Below, piece after piece: positions 12,822 to 25,501 of a DNA stretch of 46,635 nt. Each line of letters starts with the position of its first letter. The stretch's first letter is position 1. The stretch covers positions 1 to 46,635 of the forward strand of contig JAFULF010000036.1 in NCBI GenBank assembly GCA_017483225.1, given 5' to 3'. Position numbers and translations under genes: made by a program. The notes below the pieces were generated by a model, which was not told the DNA's origin, did not search any database, and saw only the letters and a list, made by a program, of their open reading frames with translations. This DNA comes from Alistipes sp. (GTDB taxonomy: Bacteria; Bacteroidota; Bacteroidia; Bacteroidales; Rikenellaceae).

Positions 12822-13430
12822 TTACAGCAACTTACCGACCAGCCAGAAGGAACCGATAAGCAGCACCGTAAAGGCGATGGCCAGAATATTGAAATACTTG
12901 TCTATGAAGCTCTTTATCGGTGCGCCGAACTTCCAAATCAGACCTGCAAAGAGGAAGAAGCGCAGGCCTCGCGAGATAATGGAGGCGACGATAAACATCG
13001 GTATATTGATATGGAACAGACCGCCGGCAATGGTAAACAGTTTATATGGCAGCGGCGTGAATCCCGCCGTAAATACCACCCAGAAGTCGTACTGGTCATA
13101 GAGAGCCTTAACATCGTTGAACTTCTCCAACGAGAATACGTGGTTGAAGAAGAAGTTTGCCAAGGCGGTGAACTCTCCCGATGGGGTCTGCCACGCAAAG
13201 AAACCCAGCGCATAGCCCGCCAAAGCACCGAGCACCGAACCCACAAGGCATACGGCGGCATATCGGAACGACTTGGCGGTGGTGCCTATACAGAGTGCGA
13301 TGAGCAGCACATCGGGCGGCACGGGGAAGAACGACGACTCGGCAAATGCCAACACAAACAGGGCGAGTGTTCCCCAGCGTGATTCGCTCCACGAGAGCAC
13401 CCAATCATACAACCTCTTAACGATATTCAT
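12822..13430 (-). CDS. YqaA/DedA-family (VTT domain) membrane protein
   Basis: 202-residue integral membrane protein of the SNARE-associated/VTT (DedA-like) superfamily, YqaA branch. Hydrophobic helices and re-entrant segments are clear, including FAESSFFPVPPDVLLIALC near the N-terminus and the conserved G-x-x-R-like segment AGFTPLPYKLFTIAGGL in the centre, then SIISRGLRFFLFAGLIWKFG. DedA relatives are proposed lipid scramblases or transporters of undecaprenyl phosphate or phosphatidylethanolamine; which applies here is unknown. It leads the pair with aroE. Confidence 0.88.
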   Translation of the reverse strand: MNIVKRLYDWVLSWSESRWGTLALFVLAFAESSFFPVPPDVLLIALCIGTTAKSFRYAAVCLVGSVLGALAGYALGFFAWQTPSGEFTALANFFFNHVFSLEKFNDVKALYDQYDFWVVFTAGFTPLPYKLFTIAGGLFHINIPMFIVASIISRGLRFFLFAGLIWKFGAPIKSFIDKYFNILAIAFTVLLIGSFWLVGKLL

Positions 13431-13468
13431 TACCTCTTATTTTTATTCCGTAATTCTGTTACTTCGGG

Positions 13469-13476
13469 CAAAGATA
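13469..13476 (-). promoter_or_regulatory. -7 box for the yqaA-aroE transcript
   Basis: On the minus strand this reads TATCTTTG, 38 bases before the YqaA-like start codon. It is divergent from the phage-cluster promoter about 110 bases away; the 13431-13774 gap holds the two promoters, a hairpin and short repeats. Confidence 0.55.
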
Positions 13477-13585
13477 CAAATATTTTTAGAAAAAATCGGA
13501 TTTTCTTTCTCGACACAACCCTCTATAATCAAAGCATTTGCAGAGAGTGCGGCGGTGGGGTGGCAAAAATTTTCGGCTGTACCTC

Positions 13586-13617
13586 TTGACAAACGGCTTT
13601 TCGGAGTTATATATTTG
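13586..13617 (+). promoter_or_regulatory. Promoter of the phage-structural operon
   Basis: TTG at 13586-13588 and TATATTTG at 13610-13617 are 21 bases apart, a very good match to the primary Bacteroidota promoter. It is the only convincing promoter seen for the eleven genes up to 22795 and would give a 5' leader of about 150 bases. Confidence 0.7.
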
Positions 13618-13643
13618 CACCGTCAATTGGGTGTTCGCCCGGC

Positions 13644-13679
13644 AGTTTTCGACACAAAATCTTTCATTGTCGAAAAACT
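13644..13679 (+). repeat. Inverted repeat (hairpin) in the operon leader
   Basis: AGTTTTCGACA (13644-13654) and TGTCGAAAAACT (13668-13679) pair with one bulged A around a 13-base loop. It lies downstream of the promoter, so it could be an RNA hairpin or an operator; no T-run follows, so it is not an obvious terminator. Confidence 0.5.
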
Positions 13680-13764
13680 TATCAACAAAACAAATCACAG
13701 ACAATGTAGGCGATAGCGGGAGTTATTCTCGACTATCAACACATTCTCAACAAACTTATCAACT
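13679..13764 (+). repeat. Three short TTATCAACA-like repeats before the first phage gene
   Basis: TTATCAACA (13679-13687), CTATCAACA (13733-13741) and TTATCAACT (13756-13764) lie on the same strand within 86 bases, just before the start codon at 13775. Each is one to three mismatches from a DnaA box (TTATCCACA). They may be regulator sites or chance AT-rich leader sequence. Confidence 0.4.
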
Positions 13765-13774
13765 TTTCTGCACT

Positions 13775-14179
13775 ATGAACCGCCAATCACTTTCAACGGC
13801 GGTGCAGGGGCTCGCCTCATCCAAAGGCTACGACTTCCACACCGCATCTGCGGAGTACCTCCCTGCACTCGCATCAACCAAGCCGACAATCGTTATGCTG
13901 CACCCGAAATTCCTAAGCATCGAGGGGCACAAGCACGGCAAAATCTCGCACTCGCTAACGCTCCACGCCCTGCAAGGCGGCGCAAAACTCTCCCACGCAG
14001 AGCGAGTTACGTTGCTCGACACGCTCGAAAACGATGTGCTCGACATCCTCACCTCACTCTCCAACGAGAGCTACGTCGTCGCCGTCGAGGATATCTGCTT
14101 CACCCCCTCGACACTGAAACTAAGCGTATCGGGGGATGTGGCAATAACGGCAACCTGCATCGTAACCTGCTTCTTCTAA
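13775..14179 (+). CDS. Small phage-type protein, possibly tail/neck completion
   Basis: 134-residue protein that I do not firmly recognise. The ATG at 13775 is chosen because upstream codons in this frame overlap the promoter region. It has an N-terminal alpha/beta part with a charged IEGHKHGKISH turn, a helix (LSHAERVTLLDTLENDVLDIL) and a C-terminal set of beta strands ending in two Phe residues. That layout resembles small tail-terminator or neck proteins of tailed phages, but this is inference from layout and neighbours. It is the first gene of the operon, 16 bases before the next. Confidence 0.6.
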   Translation: MNRQSLSTAVQGLASSKGYDFHTASAEYLPALASTKPTIVMLHPKFLSIEGHKHGKISHSLTLHALQGGAKLSHAERVTLLDTLENDVLDILTSLSNESYVVAVEDICFTPSTLKLSVSGDVAITATCIVTCFF

Positions 14180-14195
14180 CCCAAAACTCCCCGAT

Positions 14196-15176
14196 ATGTA
14201 TTTTGAAACAACCCCCTCTGATTTTACCCCGATAAGCAGTGGTCTGCCATTCGACTTCTGCTGCGAGCAGACGTGCGACATCGAGGCCGTAATCATCAAC
14301 GACCTATCTCGGGCCGAGGTGGCTCGTCTGCAAGTCAAGAACGTATATTCCGGCACCATCGACATCGCCCCATACATCCCCAAGCCGAATGCTCTCACCC
14401 CCGTAAATGTCGGCAAGAGTCGCTTCCAGAATATCGCCACGGGGCTATACCACGTCGAACTATACCGTCAGGGCGAGACAACCCCGCAGTGCTCATCCTC
14501 CTCGGTGCGGGTATCCTCTAACGGCTACCTCTCCGACGAGATGCCCTTCCTGACAACAACCCTTGCAAAGGAGCGCACCATCTCGACGGGCGAGTACGAC
14601 AACATCGCCGTATATAGTTACGTGGGTGCGGAGATTTCCGCCCGCATAACCACCGATGCGGGCGACGACGTGACGCTGACCAACACGGCGATAACCGGTG
14701 TCTCGCACCTGATTTTTGCCACGCAGTACCTCTCGGCAGAGGCTACCACCGCCACAATCGAAATCTGCTGCGACGACGAGTATGTGGAGCAGTTCTCATA
14801 CACGCTTCTGCCCAAGCGCACGACGGGTATGCGCATAGCGTGGCGCACCACCACGGGCAGCATCGAGCACTACACCTTCCCCGTGGCGACACACCTCTCC
14901 GTCGCCGCCTCACGCAACCTGACGCTGACAAAGAACAACGTCGAGAAGGTGCTGGACGGCAGCCTCGTCAAGCAGCAGCACCTCATCTCGGACTTCGAGC
15001 CCCGCAGCACGCTGAGTGCTCTCTCCGAGATTCTGGCAGCATCCGAGGTGTGGTGCATATCGCCCGGGCAGTACCGCACAAGGGTTGTCGATGTTGCCCT
15101 GAAATGCAGCCTCTTCAACGAACCCGGGCACATTGAGATAGATGTCGTGACCGACAGAAAGGAGGCCTGCGTATGA
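14196..15176 (+). CDS. Beta-rich phage tail-associated protein (hypothetical)
   Basis: 326-residue protein, predicted almost entirely beta by its alternating hydrophobic pattern and many Thr/Ser/Val residues, without signal peptide or membrane segments. It has an N-terminal FDFCCEQTCDIEAVIIND segment and repeated short strands suited to a baseplate, fibre or hub component. I do not recognise a named domain. Its stop overlaps the next start as ATGA (15173-15176), so the two are translationally coupled, which supports joint assembly with the larger tail protein that follows. Confidence 0.6.
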   Translation: MYFETTPSDFTPISSGLPFDFCCEQTCDIEAVIINDLSRAEVARLQVKNVYSGTIDIAPYIPKPNALTPVNVGKSRFQNIATGLYHVELYRQGETTPQCSSSSVRVSSNGYLSDEMPFLTTTLAKERTISTGEYDNIAVYSYVGAEISARITTDAGDDVTLTNTAITGVSHLIFATQYLSAEATTATIEICCDDEYVEQFSYTLLPKRTTGMRIAWRTTTGSIEHYTFPVATHLSVAASRNLTLTKNNVEKVLDGSLVKQQHLISDFEPRSTLSALSEILAASEVWCISPGQYRTRVVDVALKCSLFNEPGHIEIDVVTDRKEACV

Positions 15177-17551
15177 TTCGCCTCTTCATAGACAACATCG
15201 AGTGCGATGTTCCGCAGCAGATAGACATTCCGCTCGACATCTCCTCGTCGAACCTCCGCAACGTGCAGAGCGCACGCTCGGGCCGAACCATCGAGTTGGA
15301 GTTGAAGGGCACGCCGTCAAACATCTCCATCTTCGGCCGGTCGGGCCACCTCTACGCCACGAAGCGATTCAACGCCGAGCAACACACCGCCCGCATCGTC
15401 GTCGATGGCTCCACGCTCCTCGAAGGTACGGCAAATCTGCTCCAATGCCAATCCGAGCGGGGCGGCGACCTCCGCTACCGCATCCGCATCACCGGCGGCG
15501 GTGCCGAGTGGGCAAAGCAGGCGGCACACGACAAGGTGCGTGACTGCGGCATAGAGTTCTCGATGAGGCTCACGCACGACGAGATTGCCAAGAGCTGGGA
15601 GGGGGAGCAGGCGGTGCGCTTCCTGCCCGTCAGTCGCAACAGATACAGCGCAACCTACACCTCCGCCACCATCCCCAACGAGCACATTATGACCATAGAT
15701 GACTACCACCCCTTCATCTCGGTCAAGGCGGTCGTGGAGCGAATATTCACCAAGGAGGGCTACACGGTGGAGAGTGAGTTCTTCGACTCGGAGCTCTTCC
15801 GCTCGCTCTATTTCAGTGGCGAGTACTCCTCCGCCGACACCTACGCACAGCGAGCAAAAGCCTCCTTTCGAGCACGTCGTCAGGCTCCCGTTACAGCCTC
15901 GGCCGACTCCCTCGGCAGGGTCTTCGCCTCGCCGGGCGTGCTGAACTACTCGGTGGGCAACGTCGTCGATACCGCCAACCCGCTTGCTGTGGATTGTAAC
16001 GGCAAAACGATGTCGGACACCTTCGTCAATAACGATGTCTTCTTCACGGACGAGTATGGCTACATCTGCTTCTCGCCGCCATCGGCGATGAACGTGGGAT
16101 TTATCCTCCACTTGGAGTACGAAACGCCGTTCAGAATCCTCTCCCGAGAGCGACTCAAAGGCTTCGACAAGGTGGAGTTCCTCTCCGGCGTATCGCTCGA
16201 CTTTGCGCTGACGAACACCTACATCGACTTCCGAGAGAGGATTGCGGCAGCGGGCAGCTACAAGCTCTTCATCTTCGACTTTGCGGCGGGCGAACAGTAC
16301 CGATTGACCATCAAAGACCAGAGTGGCAACGTATGCTCCACGCTAGTTGCCACGGCGCAAAGCACGATAGTAAATATGCCCGACACTGAGGGTCTTACCG
16401 CCTCCTGCGAGAGGTTGGAGGGAGGCTCATACGTGCCATACGAGGGAGATTGGACTCTATACGAGTCGTTCATCCCCGAGAGTGGCACAAAGCAGGTGAG
16501 TGTCGATTTGCGCATCCCACCACAGCAGATGTACGCCGGAGAGATGTTCTACTTCGACAAGATATTCTTCGGCGGTGCCGACCCGGGTATGGAGATTACG
16601 CTGGGAACGGGGTGCTCCTTGCAGCCATACTTCTCCACCACCCCCGGCTACGGCTCCACGGTGACCTTCAAGGATATAACCCACAACAACATTTGGCTGA
16701 TAGACCTGCTGGATGCCGTGCGACAGATGTTCAATCTGGCGATATACACCGACACCCGCCAAAAGAGGGTCTATATCGAGCCGATGGAGGAGCTCTTGGG
16801 CAAGTGGGCGACGAAGGATTGGAACAACCGTATAGATGCCTCACAGCCCGTCGTAATCTCGGATGCCGGCATAGATGCTCCGCAATGGAGGGTGTTGAAG
16901 TATCGTGATGGCGACAAGGCCTCCGAGCAGTTCAATGCAGAGCACGATACGACGCTGGGCCGTTGGTGTATCGAGAATCCCCTCTACGGAGCCGTGGCAT
17001 CCACCCGCAACGACGTAAATCCTCTCTTCACCACGGGCGTAAATCGCACGGGGCTCTACTCCATAGCCCCCTCCGCCTCGATTATGCAGGTGGGCGACAG
17101 CAACGACAGCGGGTCGATGGAGACCCCATTCACCACCCACATCATAAGGTATATGGGTATGCAGCCCCTGCCCGAAGGGGAGATGTGGGGCTATCCGACA
17201 AGCAGCAACCTCTACCCTCTTGCCGGCTTCCACCACGTTGGCGATGGGGAGAACGACACCTTTTCGCTCTGCTTCGAGGAGCGTGACGGCTGCGAGGGGC
17301 TGCACCGCTACTACGATGCCGCAATGGGTCGTGAGGCGGAGGGACACTACCTGACCCTTACACTGCGCCTCTCGCCACTGGATGTGGAGCGGCTGCTCTA
17401 TCCGCAGAGGGGTGAGGCCTCGCTGATGAGCCTCTTCCGCCTGACACACGAGGGCGAGCAGTCGCTCTTCCTGCTGGATAGGCTGCAAGAGTACTCGCCC
17501 TCAACACAGGAGGCACGGTGCCGCTTCCTGCGACTGACCAAAGACTATTAG
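15173..17551 (+). CDS. Large phage tail/baseplate hub-like protein
   Basis: 792-residue protein, the largest of the cluster. The N-terminus (about residues 8-110: a segment with LDISSSNLRNVQSARSGRTI, then KGTPSNISIFG and a VVDGSTLLEGTANL strand) matches a pattern I know from Bacteroidota phages, including crAss-like ones, where a tail protein begins with an embedded short-peptide scaffold domain; I cannot name the family with certainty. The middle is rich in beta strands and small loops. Near residue 510 is a helical segment (NIWLIDLLDAVRQMFNLAIY). It is coupled by ATGA to the preceding gene. Role inferred: baseplate hub or tail tip. Confidence 0.6.
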   Translation: MIRLFIDNIECDVPQQIDIPLDISSSNLRNVQSARSGRTIELELKGTPSNISIFGRSGHLYATKRFNAEQHTARIVVDGSTLLEGTANLLQCQSERGGDLRYRIRITGGGAEWAKQAAHDKVRDCGIEFSMRLTHDEIAKSWEGEQAVRFLPVSRNRYSATYTSATIPNEHIMTIDDYHPFISVKAVVERIFTKEGYTVESEFFDSELFRSLYFSGEYSSADTYAQRAKASFRARRQAPVTASADSLGRVFASPGVLNYSVGNVVDTANPLAVDCNGKTMSDTFVNNDVFFTDEYGYICFSPPSAMNVGFILHLEYETPFRILSRERLKGFDKVEFLSGVSLDFALTNTYIDFRERIAAAGSYKLFIFDFAAGEQYRLTIKDQSGNVCSTLVATAQSTIVNMPDTEGLTASCERLEGGSYVPYEGDWTLYESFIPESGTKQVSVDLRIPPQQMYAGEMFYFDKIFFGGADPGMEITLGTGCSLQPYFSTTPGYGSTVTFKDITHNNIWLIDLLDAVRQMFNLAIYTDTRQKRVYIEPMEELLGKWATKDWNNRIDASQPVVISDAGIDAPQWRVLKYRDGDKASEQFNAEHDTTLGRWCIENPLYGAVASTRNDVNPLFTTGVNRTGLYSIAPSASIMQVGDSNDSGSMETPFTTHIIRYMGMQPLPEGEMWGYPTSSNLYPLAGFHHVGDGENDTFSLCFEERDGCEGLHRYYDAAMGREAEGHYLTLTLRLSPLDVERLLYPQRGEASLMSLFRLTHEGEQSLFLLDRLQEYSPSTQEARCRFLRLTKDY

Positions 17552-17587
17552 ACGTAATTCACAATCAACCGGACACAAACCTCAACT

Positions 17588-17842
17588 ATGAACAGACACG
17601 AGCAGAGAACACTCACAACACTGAAAATCAAGATGCAGAGCCTCAATGCCTCGCAAATCATCGACCACCTATGGAGCGAAGGGATACTCTCCCGAAAGGA
17701 GATTGAACGGATAGGAATCCGCAATGAGTTTAAGCGTCGCACGACCAACGGGGAGAGTCGATGTCGGGCTATGGAGTCTCTGGCGACAGAGTTCGGATGC
17801 TCATACGAGAAGGTGCGTGCCACAATCTACAAAAAAGAGTAA
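17588..17842 (+). CDS. Small HTH-type phage protein
   Basis: 84-residue basic protein. The C-terminal part (about residues 55-84: a charged lead, then AMESLATEFGCSYEKVRATI) reads as a helix-turn-helix, with resemblance to Mor-type activators and to homeodomain-like small terminase subunits. An N-terminal helix includes LNASQIIDHLWSEGILSRKE. A DNA-binding role is inferred. It lies between the hub gene (36 bases) and the protease gene (5 bases). If the cluster packages DNA, this is the only candidate small-terminase-like gene; if it is domesticated, it may be an autoregulator. Confidence 0.6.
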   Translation: MNRHEQRTLTTLKIKMQSLNASQIIDHLWSEGILSRKEIERIGIRNEFKRRTTNGESRCRAMESLATEFGCSYEKVRATIYKKE

Positions 17843-17847
17843 AAAGA

Positions 17848-18723
17848 ATGAAAGAGAAGATTAAAATCTCGGCAAATGCCACTACCTGCATCATCGACAT
17901 CGAGGGCACGATAGGGGTGCCCGAGGAGTGCCAATTCGAGAGCGCCGGCGAGCGTGTCGCCACCTACGAGAGGTTTCGTGAGCAGGTGGCCCGAATCTCC
18001 GAGATTGAGCAGCCATCGGTCATCGTCAACATCCGCTCGGCGGGCGGAGATGTAAACGATGCACTGCTCATCTACGAGGCACTGACGACACTCGATGCCC
18101 ACATCGTCACCCGCTGCTACGGCTACACCGCCTCCGCCGCAACAATCATCGCACAGGCGGCAAGCGAGGGTTATCGTGAGATATCGCAGTCGGCACTCTA
18201 CCTCATCCACCGTTCAAGTTGTGCCGTGGAGGGCAACTGCGAGAGCCTCTCGGCGCAGGTGGAGCTTCTGCGCAAGACCGACGAGCGGCTGGCGGCCCTC
18301 TATGCCGAGCGCTCCGGAGGCGATGTTGCCACCTTCGAGGAGCTGATGAGCCAAAACAACGGCAATGGCCGCTGGCTCTCGCCCGAGGAGGCTGTGGAGG
18401 CAGGACTCGTCGATACCATCATCGGCACAGAGCAGAAGACGGAGCAGAAGCGTACCCTCGCAGGCCGCATCTCGGAGTGGCTGGGCATAGGCAGGAAGGA
18501 GCAGGAGCCGACCCCTCGCCCGCTGCCTGCCGACCACAACATCCTGCACGACCCGCTCATCGAGCAGCAGCAACGTCGCTCCGCCATAGCTCTCGACCAA
18601 GGGCAGAGGGGCGCAAAAACCACCTCCACAAAGAGCGTGGAGGACCCCGGCATTGAGGATAGCCAGCTATCGCAAAATGCCACAGCGTACAGCCGTGATG
18701 CTATGAGTTTTCACAGACTCTAA
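17848..18723 (+). CDS. ClpP-like prohead (head maturation) protease
   Basis: 291-residue protein. The start at 17848 was chosen because the longer frame overlaps the preceding HTH gene and adds a sequence unlike the family. The ClpP/S49 fold occupies about residues 10-190: SAGGD (64-68) forms the oxyanion turn, Ser96 in GYTASAAT is the nucleophile and His121 in LYLIHRS the base. From about residue 190 there is a 100-residue hydrophilic tail rich in Glu, Gln, Lys and Arg, which could serve as scaffold. In phages such proteases trim the scaffold during capsid assembly. It sits directly before the capsid gene, the classical order. Confidence 0.85.
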   Translation: MKEKIKISANATTCIIDIEGTIGVPEECQFESAGERVATYERFREQVARISEIEQPSVIVNIRSAGGDVNDALLIYEALTTLDAHIVTRCYGYTASAATIIAQAASEGYREISQSALYLIHRSSCAVEGNCESLSAQVELLRKTDERLAALYAERSGGDVATFEELMSQNNGNGRWLSPEEAVEAGLVDTIIGTEQKTEQKRTLAGRISEWLGIGRKEQEPTPRPLPADHNILHDPLIEQQQRRSAIALDQGQRGAKTTSTKSVEDPGIEDSQLSQNATAYSRDAMSFHRL

Positions 18724-18780
18724 CAGGCGGCACACGACCCGAAATCAACCATTCAACAAACCATTAAAAACTTTAAGACA

Positions 18781-19740
18781 ATGTTAATCGAAAATCCAAA
18801 GACCTACAAAGGCAACGAAGTTGAAACCATCTTTTTCCGTCCATCGTTCTGTGGCAAGTCAGCCGAGGAGTTGGGCATCCGAGTACTCTACAATATGCCG
18901 ATGCCTACCACCGTGCAGGTGTGGAGCAAGCCCGACAACGTGTTGCAGACATTTGCAAGCGGTTGGAGCGGCGGCAAGAACGCCACAAAGTTGCAGAAGA
19001 CAATCAATATGCACAAGGTAAAGGCGGAGACGGCCTTCTCGGCCGACGACTACTTCTCGATGGTCTTCGAGAAGATTACCGGCAGTGCCGATGTCAATAT
19101 GGGCGACCTGACCGGCACCGAGTTGGAGAAGGCCGAGACGGAACTGTTCCGTCAGGCAATCGCCGAGGGTGTGCGTGCCACGATGTGGCTCGGTGACACC
19201 GATGGTGTCATCTCCTCGTTCAAGACCTTCAACGGCTTCCTCAAAGCAATCCACGATGCGATTGACAGCGAGCCGGACATCATAGCGGAGAACATATCCA
19301 GCAGCAACGGAGCCATCGACGTTATGCAGGCGACGTGGAATAACGCCACAGCCGACTTGAAGGCACTCCGCTCGGAGGAGAACCTCGTCTATCTCGTATC
19401 GTCCGACCTCTACAACAAGTACATCGAGGAGCTGGATGCCAAGGGTACCGACTCGGCATACCGAGAGAGCATTGATGGCCGTTCAGTGCTCCTCTACCAC
19501 GGCATTCCTGTCGTAGAGGTACCGCTGAGCAAGTACGTGCACAACTACGGCAACAGCTTCTGCATCCTGACCGACCGTCGCAACTTCGTCCTGGCACTCA
19601 ACACGGCAGATATACCTGAGAATGAGGTTCGTATGTGGTACAACCCCGACGAGATGGAGAATCGCCAGCGTGCCGTATTCCTCGCCGGCACCGAGATTCT
19701 TGACCTCAAACTCGTGTCGGCAAGCATCTCTGAAAACTAA
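18781..19740 (+). CDS. Major capsid protein (HK97-like fold)
   Basis: 319-residue protein judged a phage major capsid protein from its layout: N-arm with LGIRVLYNMPMPTTVQVW, a beta stretch with SGWSGGKNATKL, a helical spine, a peripheral domain containing VYLVSSDLYNKYIEEL, and the closing beta segment with ALNTADIPENEVRMWYNP and a C-terminal TEILDLKLVSASI. No long N-terminal delta (scaffold) domain precedes the N-arm, so scaffolding may come from the protease tail. It follows the protease by 57 bases with a clear ATG. Recognition is by pattern memory of Bacteroidota phage capsids, not alignment. An encapsulin-like use cannot be excluded. Confidence 0.75.
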   Translation: MLIENPKTYKGNEVETIFFRPSFCGKSAEELGIRVLYNMPMPTTVQVWSKPDNVLQTFASGWSGGKNATKLQKTINMHKVKAETAFSADDYFSMVFEKITGSADVNMGDLTGTELEKAETELFRQAIAEGVRATMWLGDTDGVISSFKTFNGFLKAIHDAIDSEPDIIAENISSSNGAIDVMQATWNNATADLKALRSEENLVYLVSSDLYNKYIEELDAKGTDSAYRESIDGRSVLLYHGIPVVEVPLSKYVHNYGNSFCILTDRRNFVLALNTADIPENEVRMWYNPDEMENRQRAVFLAGTEILDLKLVSASISEN

Positions 19741-19754
19741 ACCGTCGCTACGCT

Positions 19755-20240
19755 ATGTACGGTAATGATAAGAGAAAGCCCATCGGGGGTATAGCGTCCT
19801 GTGCGCTATACCCCGCCGATGCCGCCCGCATAAGTGCCGTGACCCGGCAGGGGTGCAAGGTGACTTTCAACAAAGCACCGTATGAGTTCGAACTCTTTGA
19901 CGAGCACTCGTCGCTGAGCGAGCAGATGGTTGCCGAGAACGGCATCTTGAAGGTGACACACCGCCTGACCCTTGTCGCCGACCGCAACCTCGCCTCGGCG
20001 TGGCTCGAAGCCCCCTTCACAAATCAGGCGATAGACAAGGGGCTGGTGGCAGAGGTGACGCTGACCGACGGCCGACACCTGCTTGTGGGGTGGTCCCACA
20101 GATTTCAGGCTGAGCAACCGCTGCGCCTCTCGTCGCTACGTTCCGACTCCGGCACTCGGGCAAACGAGACCCCGACACTCACCCTCACACTCGAAAGCCG
20201 TGACAACACCTTTGCAATGCCTGTCATACAGGAGTCTTAA
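19755..20240 (+). CDS. Probable phage tail-tube or virion protein
   Basis: 161-residue protein with a beta-rich core. The segment KVTHRLTLVADRNLASAWLE followed by DKGLVAEVTLTDGRHLLVGW and AEQPLRLSSLRSDSGTRANE matches a small conserved virion protein I associate with Bacteroidota phage clusters, placed near the capsid gene; tail tube or head decoration are the likely roles. The name is not certain. The start ATG at 19755 lies 14 bases after the capsid stop. No signal peptide or membrane helix. Confidence 0.55.
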   Translation: MYGNDKRKPIGGIASCALYPADAARISAVTRQGCKVTFNKAPYEFELFDEHSSLSEQMVAENGILKVTHRLTLVADRNLASAWLEAPFTNQAIDKGLVAEVTLTDGRHLLVGWSHRFQAEQPLRLSSLRSDSGTRANETPTLTLTLESRDNTFAMPVIQES

Positions 20241-20260
20241 ACCTTAACAACCGAAAAACA

Positions 20261-21484
20261 ATGGAGAATAAAATAAACAAAAGCGTAGTGTGTGGTGTCG
20301 CCGAGCCTCTGCCCGACATCTCCTTCACCCCTCTCTCAACCGTCGAGAGCCGTGACTTCTGGCGCTGGGGCAGCGACAACCGACTTCCACAACTGCTGGC
20401 GACCATATCCCGTCGCTCGCCAACACACCGCCGCATCATCAACGACAAGGCGGACTACATCTCCGGCAAGGGCTTCAACTTCGACCACACGGAGCCGCTG
20501 CTCGGCCGAATGGTGGAGCGCATAAACGGCTGCGGAGAGACGCTGCGACAGGTGCTGAACAAGGTCGCCTTCGACAAGTCGCTCTTCGGCAACGCCTTCG
20601 TAGAGGTTGTCACCGATGCCGAGCACTCGTTCCTCTCGCTCTTCCATCAAGATGCAACACACTGCCGTGTGGCAAAGGGGTCGCAACACATCCTGCTGCA
20701 CCACGACTGGGACTCGTTCACCAAGAGGGATGCCGTGGCACTGCCACTCTACCCACGCTTCGAGGAGCAGCCCGACGGAACGCTCCGCTCGATTATCCAC
20801 TACAAGGATTACGAGCCCTGTTTCAGCCACTACGGCGTGCCGCCATACATCGCCGGAATGAACGTCTCGGCCATAGCCTACAAGACCGACCGCTGGAACA
20901 TCTCCCGACTGGATAACTCGTTCCAACTATCTGGAATGATGGTGGTTGACGAGGCGGTGGACAATGCCCACGATGCCGAGAATCTGGTACGCTCGGCCGA
21001 GGCACGCTTCTCCGGACAGCCGGGGCAGGTGCTCTTCATAGTCAAGAGCGGCAGCGACAAGGACCACTCCCGCTTCATCCCTATCGAGTCGCAGAACGAC
21101 GGCGACTGGAAGGCTCTGCACGACCAAGCCACCGGCGATATCGTCGTCGCCCACTCGTGGTTTCGCTCGCTCAGCGGCCTCGACTACTCGTCGGGCTTCA
21201 ACTCGGAGCGCATCCTCCACGAGTACGAGATTGCCCTGAACACGGTAATCCTCGGCGAGCAGGCAGAGTTGTTGGAGCCTATCACCCACGCAATGAGTGC
21301 CATCCTCGGCATCGACTGCTCCTCGTTGGAGATTATCAACCGTCCGCCGACACGCTCGAAGCCTATCTATATGAAGGTTTGGGAGGCACGCAAGGCCGAC
21401 GGTCTGGACTACGATCCGGAGGATGAGCGTCAGCAGCTCTTTCTCTCGGAGATAAGCAAGTACAACATCACAAAAGTAGGATAG
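20261..21484 (+). CDS. Phage portal protein
   Basis: 407-residue protein with portal-type features: an N-terminal segment with DNRLPQLLATISRRSPTHRRIINDKADYISGKGF (the usual 'long helix' reading), a wing region that continues to about residue 250, and a C-terminal helical part with EIALNTVILGEQAELLEP and the crown. In phages it forms the dodecameric ring through which DNA enters the head and docks terminase. It sits 20 bases after the preceding gene and 2 bases before the connector gene. Its position downstream of the capsid gene is unlike the common portal-protease-capsid order. Confidence 0.7.
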   Translation: MENKINKSVVCGVAEPLPDISFTPLSTVESRDFWRWGSDNRLPQLLATISRRSPTHRRIINDKADYISGKGFNFDHTEPLLGRMVERINGCGETLRQVLNKVAFDKSLFGNAFVEVVTDAEHSFLSLFHQDATHCRVAKGSQHILLHHDWDSFTKRDAVALPLYPRFEEQPDGTLRSIIHYKDYEPCFSHYGVPPYIAGMNVSAIAYKTDRWNISRLDNSFQLSGMMVVDEAVDNAHDAENLVRSAEARFSGQPGQVLFIVKSGSDKDHSRFIPIESQNDGDWKALHDQATGDIVVAHSWFRSLSGLDYSSGFNSERILHEYEIALNTVILGEQAELLEPITHAMSAILGIDCSSLEIINRPPTRSKPIYMKVWEARKADGLDYDPEDERQQLFLSEISKYNITKVG

Positions 21485-21485
21485 T

Positions 21486-21959
21486 ATGAAAAACTTTATT
21501 ACACCCGACCGTGTTCTCTCGCTCGCCTTTGGCGATGGCGACTTCCTCTCGGCAGAGGTGGTTGGCGAGGCGGACATCGCCCTCGCACAGCACCGATATA
21601 TCCTCCCGATTATCGGGGCAGACCTCTGCGAGAAGGCTCTCGACGGGGAGTATGCCGACCTTGTTGACGACTATATCGCTCCCGCCCTCGCCTTTGCCGT
21701 CAGGGCACTCATCCAGCCTGCACTCAACGTGCGCTGTGGCGGAACGGGCCTCGTAGCCCCCTCAACGCCAGTGTCAGAGGCGGCCTCTACCTCGGCAGCG
21801 CAGGCTCTGCAACGCTCGTTGGAGCGACGACGTGATGCCCTGCTGAAACGCCTCTCCGACCACCTGTCGCAGAGCGTGACACTCTATCCGGAGTACGACC
21901 CTCGGGCGGATGCAATGCAAAAATGTGCAACTTATGGAGGCATTATTCAGATATATTAA
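21486..21959 (+). CDS. Head-tail connector-like protein (DUF6712-type)
   Basis: 157-residue mainly helical protein. The N-terminal FITPDRVLSLAFGDGDFLSAEVV leads into IALAQHRYILPIIGADLCEKAL, the layout of gp6-type head-tail connectors often annotated DUF6712 in Bacteroidota phages. The middle is an Ala/Ser-rich linker and the C-terminus a helix (LQRSLERRRDALLKRLSDHL). In phages it adapts the portal to the tail or neck. It directly follows the portal gene and overlaps the holin gene by 26 bases in another frame. Confidence 0.6.
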   Translation: MKNFITPDRVLSLAFGDGDFLSAEVVGEADIALAQHRYILPIIGADLCEKALDGEYADLVDDYIAPALAFAVRALIQPALNVRCGGTGLVAPSTPVSEAASTSAAQALQRSLERRRDALLKRLSDHLSQSVTLYPEYDPRADAMQKCATYGGIIQIY

Positions 21960-22377
21960 CGCTACGGTGATGGGCATAGCGGCACTCTTCGCCCCCGTCC
22001 GCCCGATAATCATCTGCGCCTTGGTCTTTGTCGTCATCGACTTCGTGACGGGAGTTGCGGCAAGCCGAAGCGTGGCACGTAATCAGGGGCAGAGGTGGTA
22101 CTTCGAGAGTTGCGAGGCGTGGCGCACGGTGCGCAAGGCGGGCTTCGTCATCACGGCGATTGCTATGACGTGGCTCTTGGAGTCGTGCGTGCTCGACTTT
22201 ATGCAACTCCACCTGACACGTCTCTTTGCGGGGATGATATGCGGTGTGGAGATGTGGTCGTTCCTCGAAAACGCCTCCGTACTCTCGGATGCCCGCCTCT
22301 TCGGGTGGATGCGCCGATATGTCCACCGCCGTATAAACAAGGAGATTGGAGATGAAATCGGAGAAGATTTTGAATAA
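21934..22377 (+). CDS. Phage holin-family membrane protein
   Basis: 147 residues from the ATG at 21934, which is preferred to the upstream in-frame ATG at 21910. It has three hydrophobic helices (VMGIAALFAPVRPIIICALVFVVIDF; VITAIAMTWLLESCVLD; then the FAGMICGVEMWSFLEN segment) and a basic C-terminus, fitting the phage_holin_4/toxin-secretion holin group. The D-F-V-T-G-V motif after the first helix is typical. Holins let endolysin reach peptidoglycan. It overlaps the connector gene by 26 bases upstream and the endolysin-like gene downstream (22352-22377). Confidence 0.8.
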   Translation: MEALFRYINATVMGIAALFAPVRPIIICALVFVVIDFVTGVAASRSVARNQGQRWYFESCEAWRTVRKAGFVITAIAMTWLLESCVLDFMQLHLTRLFAGMICGVEMWSFLENASVLSDARLFGWMRRYVHRRINKEIGDEIGEDFE

Positions 22378-22795
22378 CAAGAGGAGTCTGCCCAGAGGGC
22401 TGCGCAACTGCAACCCGGGCAACATACGCCACTCGACCGTGCGCTACAAAGGGGAGGTTACTCCGTGTAGCGACAAGGCCTTTCGGCAGTTTGAGTCCAT
22501 GGCGTGGGGCTACCGTGCAATGTTCGTGCTGCTGCACACCTACGCCAAGAAGCACGGCTGCTACACAATACGCTCTATCATAAGCCGTTACGCCCCACCT
22601 TCGGAGAACAATACGGAGGCCTACATCCGCCGTGTGTCGCTCGGCGCAGGCATCGACGACACGACAAGGATAGAGACGCTTGACCACCAAAGTATGATAC
22701 CCATCGTATGCGCAATGTCGGAGGTAGAGAACGGCGTTACTGCCCTGCGTAGCGAGGTGGAGGAGGGGTGGCGACTTTTTAGAGCAGATTTCTGA
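22352..22795 (+). CDS. Phage lysozyme-like/structural protein P5-like
   Basis: 147 residues from the ATG at 22352. It is preceded at 7 bases by AAGGAG, an unusually good Shine-Dalgarno for this organism. The N-terminal GLRNCNPGNIRHS motif and FRQFESMAWGYRAMF are the hallmarks of the 'structural protein P5' group, a lytic-transglycosylase-like peptidoglycan-degrading fold also used as endolysin. No signal peptide, so release would depend on the holin. It is the last gene of the phage-type operon and its stop is 22 bases before comEC. Confidence 0.75.
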   Translation: MKSEKILNNKRSLPRGLRNCNPGNIRHSTVRYKGEVTPCSDKAFRQFESMAWGYRAMFVLLHTYAKKHGCYTIRSIISRYAPPSENNTEAYIRRVSLGAGIDDTTRIETLDHQSMIPIVCAMSEVENGVTALRSEVEEGWRLFRADF

Positions 22796-22805
22796 CGATT
22801 TTTGC

Positions 22806-22813
22806 TATCTTTG
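22806..22813 (+). promoter_or_regulatory. -7 box of comEC
   Basis: TATCTTTG lies only 4 bases before the comEC ATG (22818), so the transcript would be nearly leaderless. The -33 region is T-rich, without a clear TTG at the proper distance. Confidence 0.5.
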
Positions 22814-22817
22814 TGGT

Positions 22818-24293
22818 ATGAATATCGAGTTTTCGACAGACCATATCAGGGAACGAATCAGGCGAATGCCGATGGCGGTGGTGTCACTATCACTCGCCCT
22901 CGGCATTCTCTTTTCGGAGTATGTTGAGATTTCGGTGTGGCTGTGGGTGGTGCTTGCGCTCTGCTCTGCCGCCATAGCCCTGCGCTATCGTGCCATAGGA
23001 ACGAGTGCCGTATGCATCTCGCTCTTCGCCCTTGGTGCTCTGCTGCACACCCTCTCCCAACCCGACCCTCTGCCATACGGCGAGCGGCTTCGTCTGCAAC
23101 TCGCCTTCGACGGCGAGAGCCGCCTGCGGGAGGGCTACTGCTCGGCAACGGCACGCATCTCCTCGTGCAACGGGAGCAGGTGTCGCAGTGGCGTGGTCGT
23201 CTATACCGACACCACCCTCCTATTCAACGCCGGCGACCGAGCCGAGGTCATCGCCACCCTGCACCCCTTCAAGAGCCACCACCGAAGCTATGCCTCGCTG
23301 ATGTACCACAGAGGGTATGTCGGCAGCGTAAACATCTCCCTCGGTCAGATAGAGTCCGTCACCTACTCCACAAGTCACTCCCTGCACGAGAGGGCAGTCT
23401 TACGCCTGCGCTCCCTCCTGCCGAGGGGCGATGCCCGAGCCGTCGTGATGGCTATGGGCGCAGGCTCCAAGGCCGAGATTGACACGGAGCTCACCGCCTC
23501 GTACTCCCGCACCGGAGCCTCCCACCTGCTCGCCGTGTCGGGGCTCCACGTAGGCATAGTCTTTATGCTTATAAATCTACTGCTTACGCCTCTGGTGCTG
23601 GCACCTGCGGGCAATATCATCCGCTCGCTCCTTGCCATACTTGCCATCTGGGCGTATGTCGGGCTGTGCGGTATGGCTCCGAGTGCCATACGTGCGGCGA
23701 TTATGTTCTCGCTGCTACAACTGTCGCTCAACTCCACCCGTGAGTACCTCTCGGGCAACATCCTTGCCGGCACAGCCTCGCTGATGCTGCTCTTTAACCC
23801 CAACCTGATTTTCGACATCAGCTTCTGCCTCTCGTTCACCGCCGTCGCCGGAATCATCTTCTGGGGAGTTCCTCTGCTGCGCCTGCTTCACATCCGCATA
23901 CCCATCGTGCGGCAGGTGGTCGAACTGCTCGTCATAGGCCTTGTGTCGTCACTTGCAGTCCTACCGCAAGTATCTCATACCTTTGGCATTATCCCCATCG
24001 TGGGTCTGCTTCTCAATCCCGCCGTAATCCTCACGGCAAACCTCATACTTCTGCCCACCATCCTCTCGCTCCTTACGCCCCTGCACCTTGCCGGCGGGCT
24101 GTTACGGGTAGCGGAGTGGGCGGCCCTGTTGCAGAACTACCTCGTCGGCAAGTGCGCATCGCTACCCTTTGCAAGCATAGATTACTCGTTCAGCATCGCC
24201 GAGATGGCTGCAACATACGCCCTCTTCTTTGTCGCAACGCTCCTCTCGCTCGGCTTCCGCCGAAGCAAAAAGGTTCGGCTGCCGAAGATTTAG
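22818..24293 (+). CDS. comEC: ComEC/Rec2 family competence protein
   Basis: 491-residue polytopic inner-membrane protein of the ComEC family, which imports single-stranded DNA during transformation. It has an N-terminal DUF4131-like part (a short helix pair and an OB-like stretch up to about residue 170) and the Competence domain with GASHLLAVSGLHVGIVF and about ten further hydrophobic helices. There is no C-terminal metallo-beta-lactamase domain, and it is short compared with Bacillus ComEC (776 residues). It directly follows the phage-type lysin gene, with its own -7 box. Natural competence is not shown by this gene alone. Confidence 0.92.
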   Translation: MNIEFSTDHIRERIRRMPMAVVSLSLALGILFSEYVEISVWLWVVLALCSAAIALRYRAIGTSAVCISLFALGALLHTLSQPDPLPYGERLRLQLAFDGESRLREGYCSATARISSCNGSRCRSGVVVYTDTTLLFNAGDRAEVIATLHPFKSHHRSYASLMYHRGYVGSVNISLGQIESVTYSTSHSLHERAVLRLRSLLPRGDARAVVMAMGAGSKAEIDTELTASYSRTGASHLLAVSGLHVGIVFMLINLLLTPLVLAPAGNIIRSLLAILAIWAYVGLCGMAPSAIRAAIMFSLLQLSLNSTREYLSGNILAGTASLMLLFNPNLIFDISFCLSFTAVAGIIFWGVPLLRLLHIRIPIVRQVVELLVIGLVSSLAVLPQVSHTFGIIPIVGLLLNPAVILTANLILLPTILSLLTPLHLAGGLLRVAEWAALLQNYLVGKCASLPFASIDYSFSIAEMAATYALFFVATLLSLGFRRSKKVRLPKI

Positions 24294-24328
24294 AGAGGCC
24301 ATATTCGGAAAAGTTCCAAATTTATTGC

Positions 24329-24336
24329 TAAATTTG
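24329..24336 (+). promoter_or_regulatory. -7 box of the methyltransferase gene
   Basis: TAAATTTG ends 4 bases before the ATG at 24341, again an almost leaderless arrangement. A TTC at 24304-24306 may serve as a weak -33 element (spacing 22). Confidence 0.5.
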
Positions 24337-24340
24337 CACT

Positions 24341-25501
24341 ATGTTCACACTCGAAGAGTTCTCGACGCTCTGTCAGGAGCAGGTGCAGTGCGCCATTGCA
24401 GAGAATATCGACCGCACGCCGACCGATATCGCTCTGGACCGTCGTGTGCCTGCCGCTGCCGCCGTTGCCACGCAAGTCAAGCGACTGCAAAGGGCTCGGA
24501 GCAAGCTCCCATCCTACTACGCCGTGAGGGCGATACTCCCTCCACGTGCCTACGAGCAGTCGTCGAGCGAGGAGTGCGCCGCACGCAAGCGCCTCTGCGG
24601 GGAGTCGGTGCTCGACCTCACCTGCGGGCTCGGTGTCGATACTATGGCACTTGCACGACGTTTCAGGAGGGTGGTCGCCTTGGAGCGTGACGAGGTGTTG
24701 GCCGCCGTGACACGTCACAACCTGCAACGCCTCGGCATCGAGAATGTGACCATCATAAACTGCTCGGCGGAGGAGTTCTTGTCCACGTGCGAGCAACACT
24801 TCGACTGGTGCTTTGCCGACCCTGACCGCCGTGGCGAGGCGGGCGAGAAACTTGTGCGCTTGGAGGATTGCTCCCCCAATATGGTTGCCCTGCGCAGCGA
24901 CATAGAGCGCATTGCCGACCGCATCTGCATCAAGTGCTCGCCGCTGTTCGACACCGCCGAGGCACAACATCTCTTTGGCGACTGCTCGGTGGAGAGCGTA
25001 TCGCTGGCGGGAGAGTGCAAGGAGGTCAATATCTATATCGACGGCACCACCCCGACACTTGCCGCTGAGGCCATCGGTCTGGGACGTGTCGAGGTGCCTT
25101 GGGCGGAGGTGGGCAACTACGCTCCGGGCGAGCCACCGACCGACCTTGAAGCATACCGCTACCTCATCCTCCCCGATGTTGCCCTGCAACACTCACGCCT
25201 GACGGCCTACGCCCTCGCAGGCAGGGCCGACGTATGGTCAGCAACGGGCATTGCCCTCTCGACGGAGGCTCCGCAGGGGGTTCCGGGCCGCATCTTCGAG
25301 ATTGGCTCCATACTCGACCTCGGCAACAAACAGACAAAGAGGAGGCTGCGTGGTGCCAAGGTGGAGATTTATCGCCGAGATATGCCCCTCTCCAACGGAG
25401 AGCTGTGCCGCCGCTTCGGAATGCGTGAGGGTGGCGAGCAGAGGTGGTGCTTTACAAAAATTGGCACCCGCTCGGTTGCAATAGAGATGAAAAAGATGTA
25501 A
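24341..25501 (+). CDS. SAM-dependent methyltransferase with THUMP-like domain
   Basis: 386-residue class I methyltransferase. The Rossmann motif is VLDLTCGLGVDT (about residues 90-101); the family motif is FADPDRRG in place of the NPPY of amino-methyltransferases. C-terminal to it (from about residue 295) lies a THUMP-like/ferredoxin-like domain with a SATGIAL and GRIFEIGSIL segment, which I associate with the PG_1098-type family. The substrate is probably an RNA base but unknown. It starts at a near-leaderless promoter and ends 10 bases before the DUF2520 gene. Confidence 0.83.
   Translation: MFTLEEFSTLCQEQVQCAIAENIDRTPTDIALDRRVPAAAAVATQVKRLQRARSKLPSYYAVRAILPPRAYEQSSSEECAARKRLCGESVLDLTCGLGVDTMALARRFRRVVALERDEVLAAVTRHNLQRLGIENVTIINCSAEEFLSTCEQHFDWCFADPDRRGEAGEKLVRLEDCSPNMVALRSDIERIADRICIKCSPLFDTAEAQHLFGDCSVESVSLAGECKEVNIYIDGTTPTLAAEAIGLGRVEVPWAEVGNYAPGEPPTDLEAYRYLILPDVALQHSRLTAYALAGRADVWSATGIALSTEAPQGVPGRIFEIGSILDLGNKQTKRRLRGAKVEIYRRDMPLSNGELCRRFGMREGGEQRWCFTKIGTRSVAIEMKKM

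Follow-up and report, generated by a model that had tools for sequence, protein, structure and literature searches.

What does a compact block of phage structural genes do in the chromosome of a gut bacterium when packaging and integration genes are missing from it? The question is raised by the window analysed here, the whole of a 46,635-nucleotide stretch from Alistipes sp. of the family Rikenellaceae (assembly GCA_017483225.1, contig JAFULF010000036.1). The window is contig C27 of its own genome, G000, which comprises 1.86 Mb in 42 contigs and is 90% complete. From 13775 to 22795 it carries an operon of eleven plus-strand open reading frames (ORFs), g1 to g11, which are close-packed or overlapping, contain no internal stops, and are preceded by a promoter at 13586-13617. 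The operon is predicted to encode protease, capsid, portal, connector-type, tail-type, holin, and lysin proteins. A note made earlier from the letters of this DNA, the original prediction, had described eleven intact, tightly packed genes devoid of terminase, integrase, replication, and tape-measure functions, and that description holds: family searches recognised no terminase, integrase, repressor, replication gene, or tape measure within the block. Its proposal of a domesticated capsid/tail system, or of a particle resembling a gene transfer agent (GTA), is likewise supported by what appears to be a family-wide, mostly single-copy element. We consider it probable that the operon supplies the structural and lysis genes of a GTA that the Rikenellaceae have domesticated and pass on vertically, and that this GTA is divided between two loci and lacks a tape measure.

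Conservation throughout the family places the operon far beyond chance. In a first sample, 48 of 49 congeners had the capsid gene, against 0 of 32 genomes from other families. With a capsid profile, matches came from 181 of the 200 genomes in the family and from 17 of its 22 genera; among the 109 good genomes (completeness of 90% or more, contamination of 5% or less), 105 matched. These counts contradict absence from most sister strains, an outcome that would have told against the original prediction. Two matches were found in each of G006, G147, G179, G190, and G238, and one in every remaining matching genome. A sample of the order gave 7 matches among 295 genomes, three of them in family members, so that 4 of 292 others matched, all weakly or partially (most non-matching genomes of this sample, and of the order sample used for the terminase below, are unnamed, and a few may be family members). 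Of the 217 places confirmed by a search of named records, 80 were kept; they include Alistipes muris DSM 112343 (L116), which carries the operon, and Alistipes sp. Marseille-P5061 (L139).

Gene order is conserved too. Of 120 distinct capsid loci, 92 are flank-complete, with at least 5.5 kb upstream and at least 4.2 kb downstream; they comprise 78 Alistipes-type loci, one IMG/VR contig, and 13 loci from other genus codes, the window and a prophage (L027) being excluded. The core genes g2, g3, g5, g6, g8, and g9 were detected in all 92, the detected genes of the g1-g11 set are collinear and on one strand in all 92, and all six core genes are whole in 84 (at least 70% of the profile in a single frame). 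Detection falls to 64/92 for g4, 46/92 for g1, and 45/92 for g7, which are short, fast-changing genes with weak profiles. No locus of the 92 holds a relative of the prophage tape measure described below, just two have a terminase within the stretch, and only L039 and L160 match a prophage-type integrase, as does L136, a longer copy of a locus already counted. In none of the loci read did an integrative prophage take the operon's place, a result that would likewise have told against the original prediction. Conservation of the chromosomal setting is partial: of 91 distinct Alistipes loci, 31 have a same-strand comEC following the operon on its 3' side, and only 44 have comEC or its neighbour close by. 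The setting between yqaA-aroE and comEC given in the original prediction needs correction to this extent; yqaA and aroE were not found in these loci, some of which have little upstream sequence.

The structural operon is under purifying selection, as a check suggested with the original prediction made clear. Ratios of nonsynonymous to synonymous substitution (dN/dS) were obtained from 28 disjoint pairs, drawn from 122 distinct loci of 144 and having capsid dS values of 0.1-1.5, with 4 to 28 pairs per gene. Medians by gene lie between 0.10 and 0.27. The lowest is that of the portal gene g8 (0.097, 26 pairs), the highest, 0.27, is shared by g1 (4 pairs) and g2 (20 pairs), and single pairs reach 0.61. 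For the host neighbours the values are 0.14 for the methyltransferase (8 pairs) and 0.27 for comEC (3 pairs).

Trees were compared for 28 Alistipes genomes that have structural, terminase, and repressor sets, the last two belonging to the second locus; shared splits were counted against 1000 label shuffles, and DnaE, as whole frames of 1262 columns, was the sole host marker. The structural and DnaE trees have 14 of 25 splits in common (shuffled mean 0.18, maximum 2); 11 strongly supported splits are common, and there is one conflict at support 95 or more. This agreement indicates that the element has mostly been inherited with its host. For the structural and terminase trees the overlap is 16 of 25 splits (shuffled mean 0.22, maximum 3), with zero conflicting split pairs at support 90 or 95; for terminase and DnaE it is 14 of 25, and one conflict appears at support 95. 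Conflicting pairs between the structural and repressor trees number 3 at support 90 and 0 at support 95; between the terminase and repressor trees they number 2 and 1.

A large terminase, which the original prediction suspected might lie elsewhere, was indeed found at a second locus. In G000 it lies on contig C16 (about 61590-63020), not on C27. Matches to the Pfam family Terminase_6N were obtained in 57 of 61 Alistipes genomes, six of which have two and the others one each. With a terminase profile (A2) the gene was recovered from 181 of the 200 genomes in the family, mostly in single copy, and from 18 of 22 genera; of the 109 good genomes, 105 have it. Part of the 181 matches are fragments or weaker, and possibly represent terminases of other phages (for example in G115, G166, and G106). 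In the order sample, 7 of 196 genomes outside the family matched, one of them strongly (G279, 657 bits). That strong relative, at G279:C3:206608-207990 in another Bacteroidales family (f61), may be part of a prophage or of a sister element. The terminase proteins of the family retain Walker A and B motifs and acidic nuclease motifs, and the terminase matched a solved large-terminase structure at 3.1e-5.

Shared contigs give the spacing of the two loci. In G176, a single contig, the capsid gene lies at 1.26 Mb and the best of three terminase matches at 3.27 Mb; the corresponding positions are 1.11 and 3.75 Mb in G188 and 0.77 and 0.11 Mb in G198, and the two genes are 66 kb apart in G110. In genus code g52 (G129 and G187; loci L223 and L225) the distance is just 9 to 10 kb, perhaps a remnant of a linked ancestral arrangement or a secondary relinking. 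Capsid and terminase are jointly absent from 13 of 200 genomes, against 1.8 expected (Fisher p 7e-12), and shared draft incompleteness accounts for part of this joint absence. Genus codes g42 (2/2) and g44 (4/4) lack both. A capsid without a terminase occurs in G043, G204, G032, G238, and G250, and the reverse in G138 and G199, among others.

The surroundings of the terminase were examined in 43 loci, seven of them from other genus codes, after exclusion of L068, L071, and L081 (prophage or other phage). In every one, a repressor homologue with a helix-turn-helix and a Peptidase_S24 domain lies divergently beside the terminase. Among up to 42 sequences per column, one of the 43 loci being cut by a contig end, the repressors keep an Ala-Gly pair (40 and 42 of 42), Ser135 (40/42), and Lys178 (40/42), the residues expected for self-cleavage of the LexA/CI kind. 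Between repressor and terminase, 40 of the 43 loci have a conserved gene for a protein of about 96 residues; in G000 it precedes the terminase at about 60904-61194 of C16 (L067:8905-9195). Family searches gave no family match for this protein. Because it occupies the place of the small terminase in the prophage described below, it is a candidate small terminase or regulator.

The element might work as follows. In a subset of cells, the operon promoter would direct the making of capsids. Relief of repression, perhaps through RecA after DNA damage, would allow the terminase to be made, and this enzyme might then pack chromosomal fragments into the capsids with no pac-specific small terminase. 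Holin and lysin would open the cell, and the particles would bring DNA to relatives. With the tape measure absent, the tail would be very short, or its length would be set otherwise. Operon and terminase locus, where far apart, would presumably be unable to share one small head. A more elaborate scheme is possible and, on present evidence, rather doubtful: that the element is a family-wide GTA of Bacteroidota in which packaging is gated apart from particle building, the terminase being held by a self-cleaving LexA/CI-type repressor so that DNA damage decides the filling with chromosome; that an ancestral tape measure and a pac-type small terminase were removed; and that the 96-residue protein took over the small-terminase role.

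A likely indication of where the element came from is found in G006, which has both a copy of the operon (contig C16) and a related prophage (contig C31, about 18.9-55 kb; L068:4879-19885, L027, L069). From its gene content the C31 element is apparently a complete prophage of the operon's lineage. It shares homologues of g2, g3, g5, g6, g8, and g9 and, at weak scores, of g4 and g7, all following the order of the operon, together with a homologous terminase 54% identical to the own-genome copy. It differs in having an integrase (PF00589, 3.5e-24), a small terminase (PF03592, 4.8e-22), and a tape measure, and in placing its terminases, small before large, 5' of the structural genes. Downstream of them the order is g2, g3, tape measure, g4 (weak), protease, capsid, g7 (weak), portal, and g9. 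The tape measure has 893 residues and matches phrog_167 (1.1e-5) and phrog_3336 (3.2e-4). Genes also occupy the g1 and holin places, the profiles of g1, g10, and g11 find no match in this prophage, and a single-strand binding protein was named in it by eye. G+C (GC) content is 44.6% in the prophage, 48.3% in the G006 operon, and 42.0% in the host stretch beside the prophage, values that leave its residence undecided.

Among 61 Alistipes genomes, a prophage-type tape measure occurs in 4, including G006, and the small terminase PF03592 in G006 only, the carrier of the prophage. A gene for a 250-residue protein, 3' of the prophage terminase, persists 5' of g1 in L226, L231, and L241, all from other genus codes, and in the IMG/VR contig L169, whose capsid is 99% like that of L226; loci retaining it look like an earlier stage of trimming. 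Prophage and operon may form a before-and-after pair, which suggests that domestication removed the integrase, the small terminase, and the tape measure and relocated the terminase. An IMG/VR contig of 13 kb, L175, encodes a 40% capsid relative with homologues of the protease, portal, and g9, followed by other genes; it has the look of a separate phage, and the element might be rooted with its aid. Other pieces in virus collections (IMG/VR L167-L174, as well as L061, MT838805.1, and L062, MT838736.1) resemble the chromosomal operon itself, and L061 continues into comEC and further host genes. MT838805 and MT838736, scaffolds of human fecal origin filed as phage, are congener-type chromosome around this operon. 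They were considered as packaged host DNA and judged neutral, because they were possibly filed for their phage look.

Family matches back six of the eleven operon proteins. These are a ClpP-like head maturation protease (g5, 17848-18723; phrog_94, 3.8e-38; PF00574, 1.6e-26), the major capsid protein (g6, 18781-19740; phrog_1623, a virion structural protein family, 2.2e-10, and its position 3' of the protease; alignment A1 of 18 rows), a PBSX-type portal protein (g8, 20261-21484; phrog_11226, 8.8e-22; TIGR01540, 1.4e-16, and PF04860, 2.6e-8, both under curated cut-offs), a DUF6712 head-tail connector candidate (g9, 21486-21959; PF20459, 1.7e-12), a holin (g10, 21910-22377; PF05105, 2.6e-9; phrog_199, 1.2e-5), and a P5-type endolysin-like protein (g11, 22346-22795; phrog_873, 2.3e-43; no Pfam match). 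Recognisable structural features, as asserted in the original prediction, are thus found for these six; annotation by sequence fails for g1, g2, g3, g4, and g7, for which Pfam, PHROG, and other family searches gave no informative match, and whose tail or connector labels follow from operon position.

The prophage adds to what can be said of these five plus-strand genes. The product of g1 (13775-14179, 134 residues) is a connector or tail-completion candidate by its operon place; a gene for 138 residues stands at that place in the G006 prophage, and the g1 profile does not match it. The tail-type protein of g2 (14196-15176, 326 residues) has a prophage homologue immediately 5' of g3 (profile E 1.1e-18). 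That of g3 (15173-17551, 792 residues), also of tail type, matches phrog_33698 weakly (0.0066); its prophage homologue, immediately 5' of the tape measure (profile E 8.5e-71), matches the same family at 3.4e-8. The small g4 protein (17588-17842, 84 residues), which precedes the protease, has a weak homologue (4.3e-5) in the interval between tape measure and protease, and in some Alistipes the g4 match falls inside the protease frame. The product of g7 (19755-20240, 161 residues) is a head-tail connector candidate whose prophage counterpart, a weak homologue (1.4e-5), is encoded between the capsid and portal genes. Weak matches linking g8 with Shiga toxin B subunits (E 0.0065 to 0.09) were judged to be chance, as was one of g4 to CARD (0.0016, under cut-off). 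Rfam gave no match in 13400-23000. The GC content of the operon block is 57.7%, against 55.0% for the remainder of the window. Directly 3' of the operon, and outside the element, lies the host flank gene comEC (22818-24293, plus strand).

The host-type promoter that was said to lead the block corresponds to the top-scoring promoter-like site in 13400-24400: a Bacteroidota-type TTG-N-TATATATTTG at 13586-13617 on the plus strand, in a scan whose overall yield of 6 sites versus 4.7 in shuffles is no excess. The pattern recurs in 39 of 56 stretches 5' of g1 homologues (duplicates counted), against 2% in a shuffled control. Downstream of it, at 13646-13676, is an inverted repeat, TTTTCGACA...TGTCGAAAA, probably a site for a regulator or a hairpin of the leader, whose folding is better than that of shuffled sequence (z -3.8). 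The inverted pair was matched in 6 of 10 genomes searched, each time at the operon leader, which is its sole place in 5; G000 holds one extra match, on C40. A backward-pattern control matched in 2 of the 10, G000 and G020.

Further TTATCAACA-like sites, found by motif counts, fill the leader 5' of g1 (13679-13774, plus strand). The motif TT[AT]T[CT][AG]ACA averages 3.06 sites per 200 nucleotides in 35 Alistipes leaders versus 0.03 in shuffles, a ratio that is inflated because it was on the same leaders that the motif had been chosen by eye. The window leader has three exact sites, at 13646, 13668, and 13679, the others being one base off; the array runs in both orientations, in the window at 13646-13774 and in other Alistipes operon leaders. 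TTATCAACA is similar to the DnaA box. Control by DnaA was judged unlikely, however, since the leader sites differ from the canonical box: counted over 56 leaders (each of up to 320 nucleotides, duplicates included), there are 149 TT[AT]T[CT][AG]ACA sites versus 1 TTATNCACA. The 3.2 kb around dnaA in G000 hold two canonical TTATNCACA and one TTTTCAACA. Matches to dnaA occur on two G000 contigs (C28:74875-75081 and C36:9116-9322) with equal score and frame length, and are probably one stretch assembled twice.

A number of points count against interpretation of the element as a GTA. Particles, packaged DNA, and transfer are predictions from the genes; because the tape measure is missing, a tail that delivers DNA is not assured, and the element has no known receptor-binding protein. 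The five proteins g1, g2, g3, g4, and g7 are without an informative family match, and a profile search of solved structures gave no relative of g2 or g3 and only chance-level matches for the capsid. PF03592 searches of the 61 Alistipes genomes revealed no recognisable small terminase outside the prophage. The holin gene g10 was detected in 78 of the 92 flank-complete loci and the lysin gene g11 in 77. The capsid gene is absent from 19 of 200 family genomes; among good Alistipes genomes, G138 and G199 have a terminase and no capsid gene, and G043 and G204 the reverse, mismatches that may reflect loss or assembly gaps. In 8 of the 92 loci a core gene is partial, split, or mostly gone, some of these perhaps through assembly errors. 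The clearest case is L157, from an A. senegalensis metagenome-assembled genome, where g3 and the protease are mostly gone; the portal is spread over two frames in L021 and g3 in L159, and the protease is partial in L133, L169, L226, and L232 (in the last three the match is restricted to the end of the profile) and g9 in L236. The claim that there are no pseudogenes is therefore good for the eleven ORFs of the window and not for a few relatives, which have damaged copies. Finally, the repressor tree agrees less well, since 9 of its 25 splits recur in the structural tree and 8 in that of DnaE, and agreement between the trees of two host-inherited loci is by itself no proof of joint function.

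Killer and container particles of phage origin exist, and the element might be a domesticated particle kept for killing kin or rivals, for altruistic lysis, or for a protein cargo, with the unlinked terminase serving some other purpose. The missing prophage-type tape measure, the confinement of PF03592 to the prophage carrier, the lack of a known receptor-binding gene, and the presence of lysis genes in most loci would all fit. A portal, however, is expected solely for DNA passage, and portal, protease, and connector-type genes are all under purifying selection; a packaging motor that looks active from its motifs, moreover, co-occurs and co-diverges with the structural genes. We regard a particle of this sort as unlikely, if deserving of attention. 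Phage-derived genes that lack integration and replication functions, with core damage in the 8 relatives, could also be read as a cryptic, decaying prophage that looks neat in this strain by chance. This compact cryptic prophage was the main alternative offered with the original prediction, and it is already contradicted by the presence of the capsid gene in 181 of 200 genomes, the whole core in 84 of 92 loci, the low dN/dS medians, and the agreement with the host tree; it merits scarcely any credence. A capsid-forming satellite or split prophage, dependent on a helper and still mobile between cells, would explain structural genes that lack a tape measure and the coexistence of operon and related prophage in G006, yet it is very improbable given a prophage-type integrase in 2 of 92 loci only, a tree that follows the host, and the absence of PF03592 from 60 of 61 Alistipes genomes. 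A satellite that forms capsids has its own integrase and moves between hosts, and was rejected on the same integrase and tree evidence. A functional temperate prophage keeps integrase, replication, and packaging genes together and is patchily present; here such genes were not recognised in the operon and the capsid gene is present in 181 of 200 family members, and that explanation was set aside. Distribution, intactness, and tree agreement led to rejection of a mobile island as well.

A domesticated GTA thus remains the preferred explanation, and it can be set beside known systems. Faecalibacterium, the source of the GTA called FpGTA, belongs to Bacillota, and Alistipes to Bacteroidota. A literature search, which had most subscription papers and all preprints outside its scope and is no proof, found no GTA described from Bacteroidota among the titles and abstract openings listed. 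In the matching passages of PMC4568480, the term GTA denotes portal-protein annotations on virome contigs, and Alistipes appears separately, among genera matched by unassembled reads. GTAs have been detailed mainly in alphaproteobacteria, and the Faecalibacterium element, reported in 2026, is called the first in the human gut microbiome in PMC12946183. A definition given in PMC9662315 lists six features: phage-derived proteins that form tailed-phage-like particles, mostly random packaging of host DNA, endogenised loci, incomplete or absent packaging of the element's own genome because the head is too small, mostly vertical inheritance, and delivery. Three of these are seen in the Alistipes element by sequence analysis. 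Its protease, capsid, portal, holin, lysin, and terminase are derived from tailed phages by protein similarity, which the same definition allows; it is endogenised over several loci, the operon showing no recognisable gene for integration or replication and the terminase lying at a distance or on another contig; and it is mostly vertically inherited, in congruence with the host tree (28 Alistipes genomes, DnaE). For this reason we call it a candidate GTA.

If this assignment is correct, an ancient GTA extending over most of a gut family would give common animal and human commensals a built-in route for the exchange of chromosomal DNA. The idea is directly testable, because a named strain, A. 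muris DSM 112343, carries the operon. The likeness to FpGTA, as portrayed in the passages of PMC12946183 that describe it, includes residence in gut bacteria, a structural operon of about 10 kb, two loci, and a holin with an endolysin; those passages name no tape measure, and they describe capsids without visible tails that are thought to be podovirus-like. FpGTA operon I occurs in all twelve Faecalibacterium genomes that its authors examined, and the element is backed there by particle, DNA, and proteomic evidence (PMC12946183), whereas that of Alistipes is known from its genes. The two also differ in plan. In FpGTA the capsid operon includes the small and large terminases, and the second locus has the genes for tail and lysis (PMC12946183), whereas in Alistipes the lysis genes lie beside the capsid gene and the terminase stands apart, next to a LexA/CI-type repressor. 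With RcGTA and the Rhodogtaviriformidae, to judge from PMC9662315 and PMC7947584, the Alistipes element shares structural genes of tailed-phage type, vertical inheritance over a large clade, and endogenisation, often over several loci. RcGTA differs, in a comparison by description (PMC7947584), in that its small terminase g1, which has no specific DNA-binding domain, adjoins the large terminase g2, and in having a tape measure. The separation of a capsid locus from a repressor-linked terminase locus would be an unusual design for the control of packaging.

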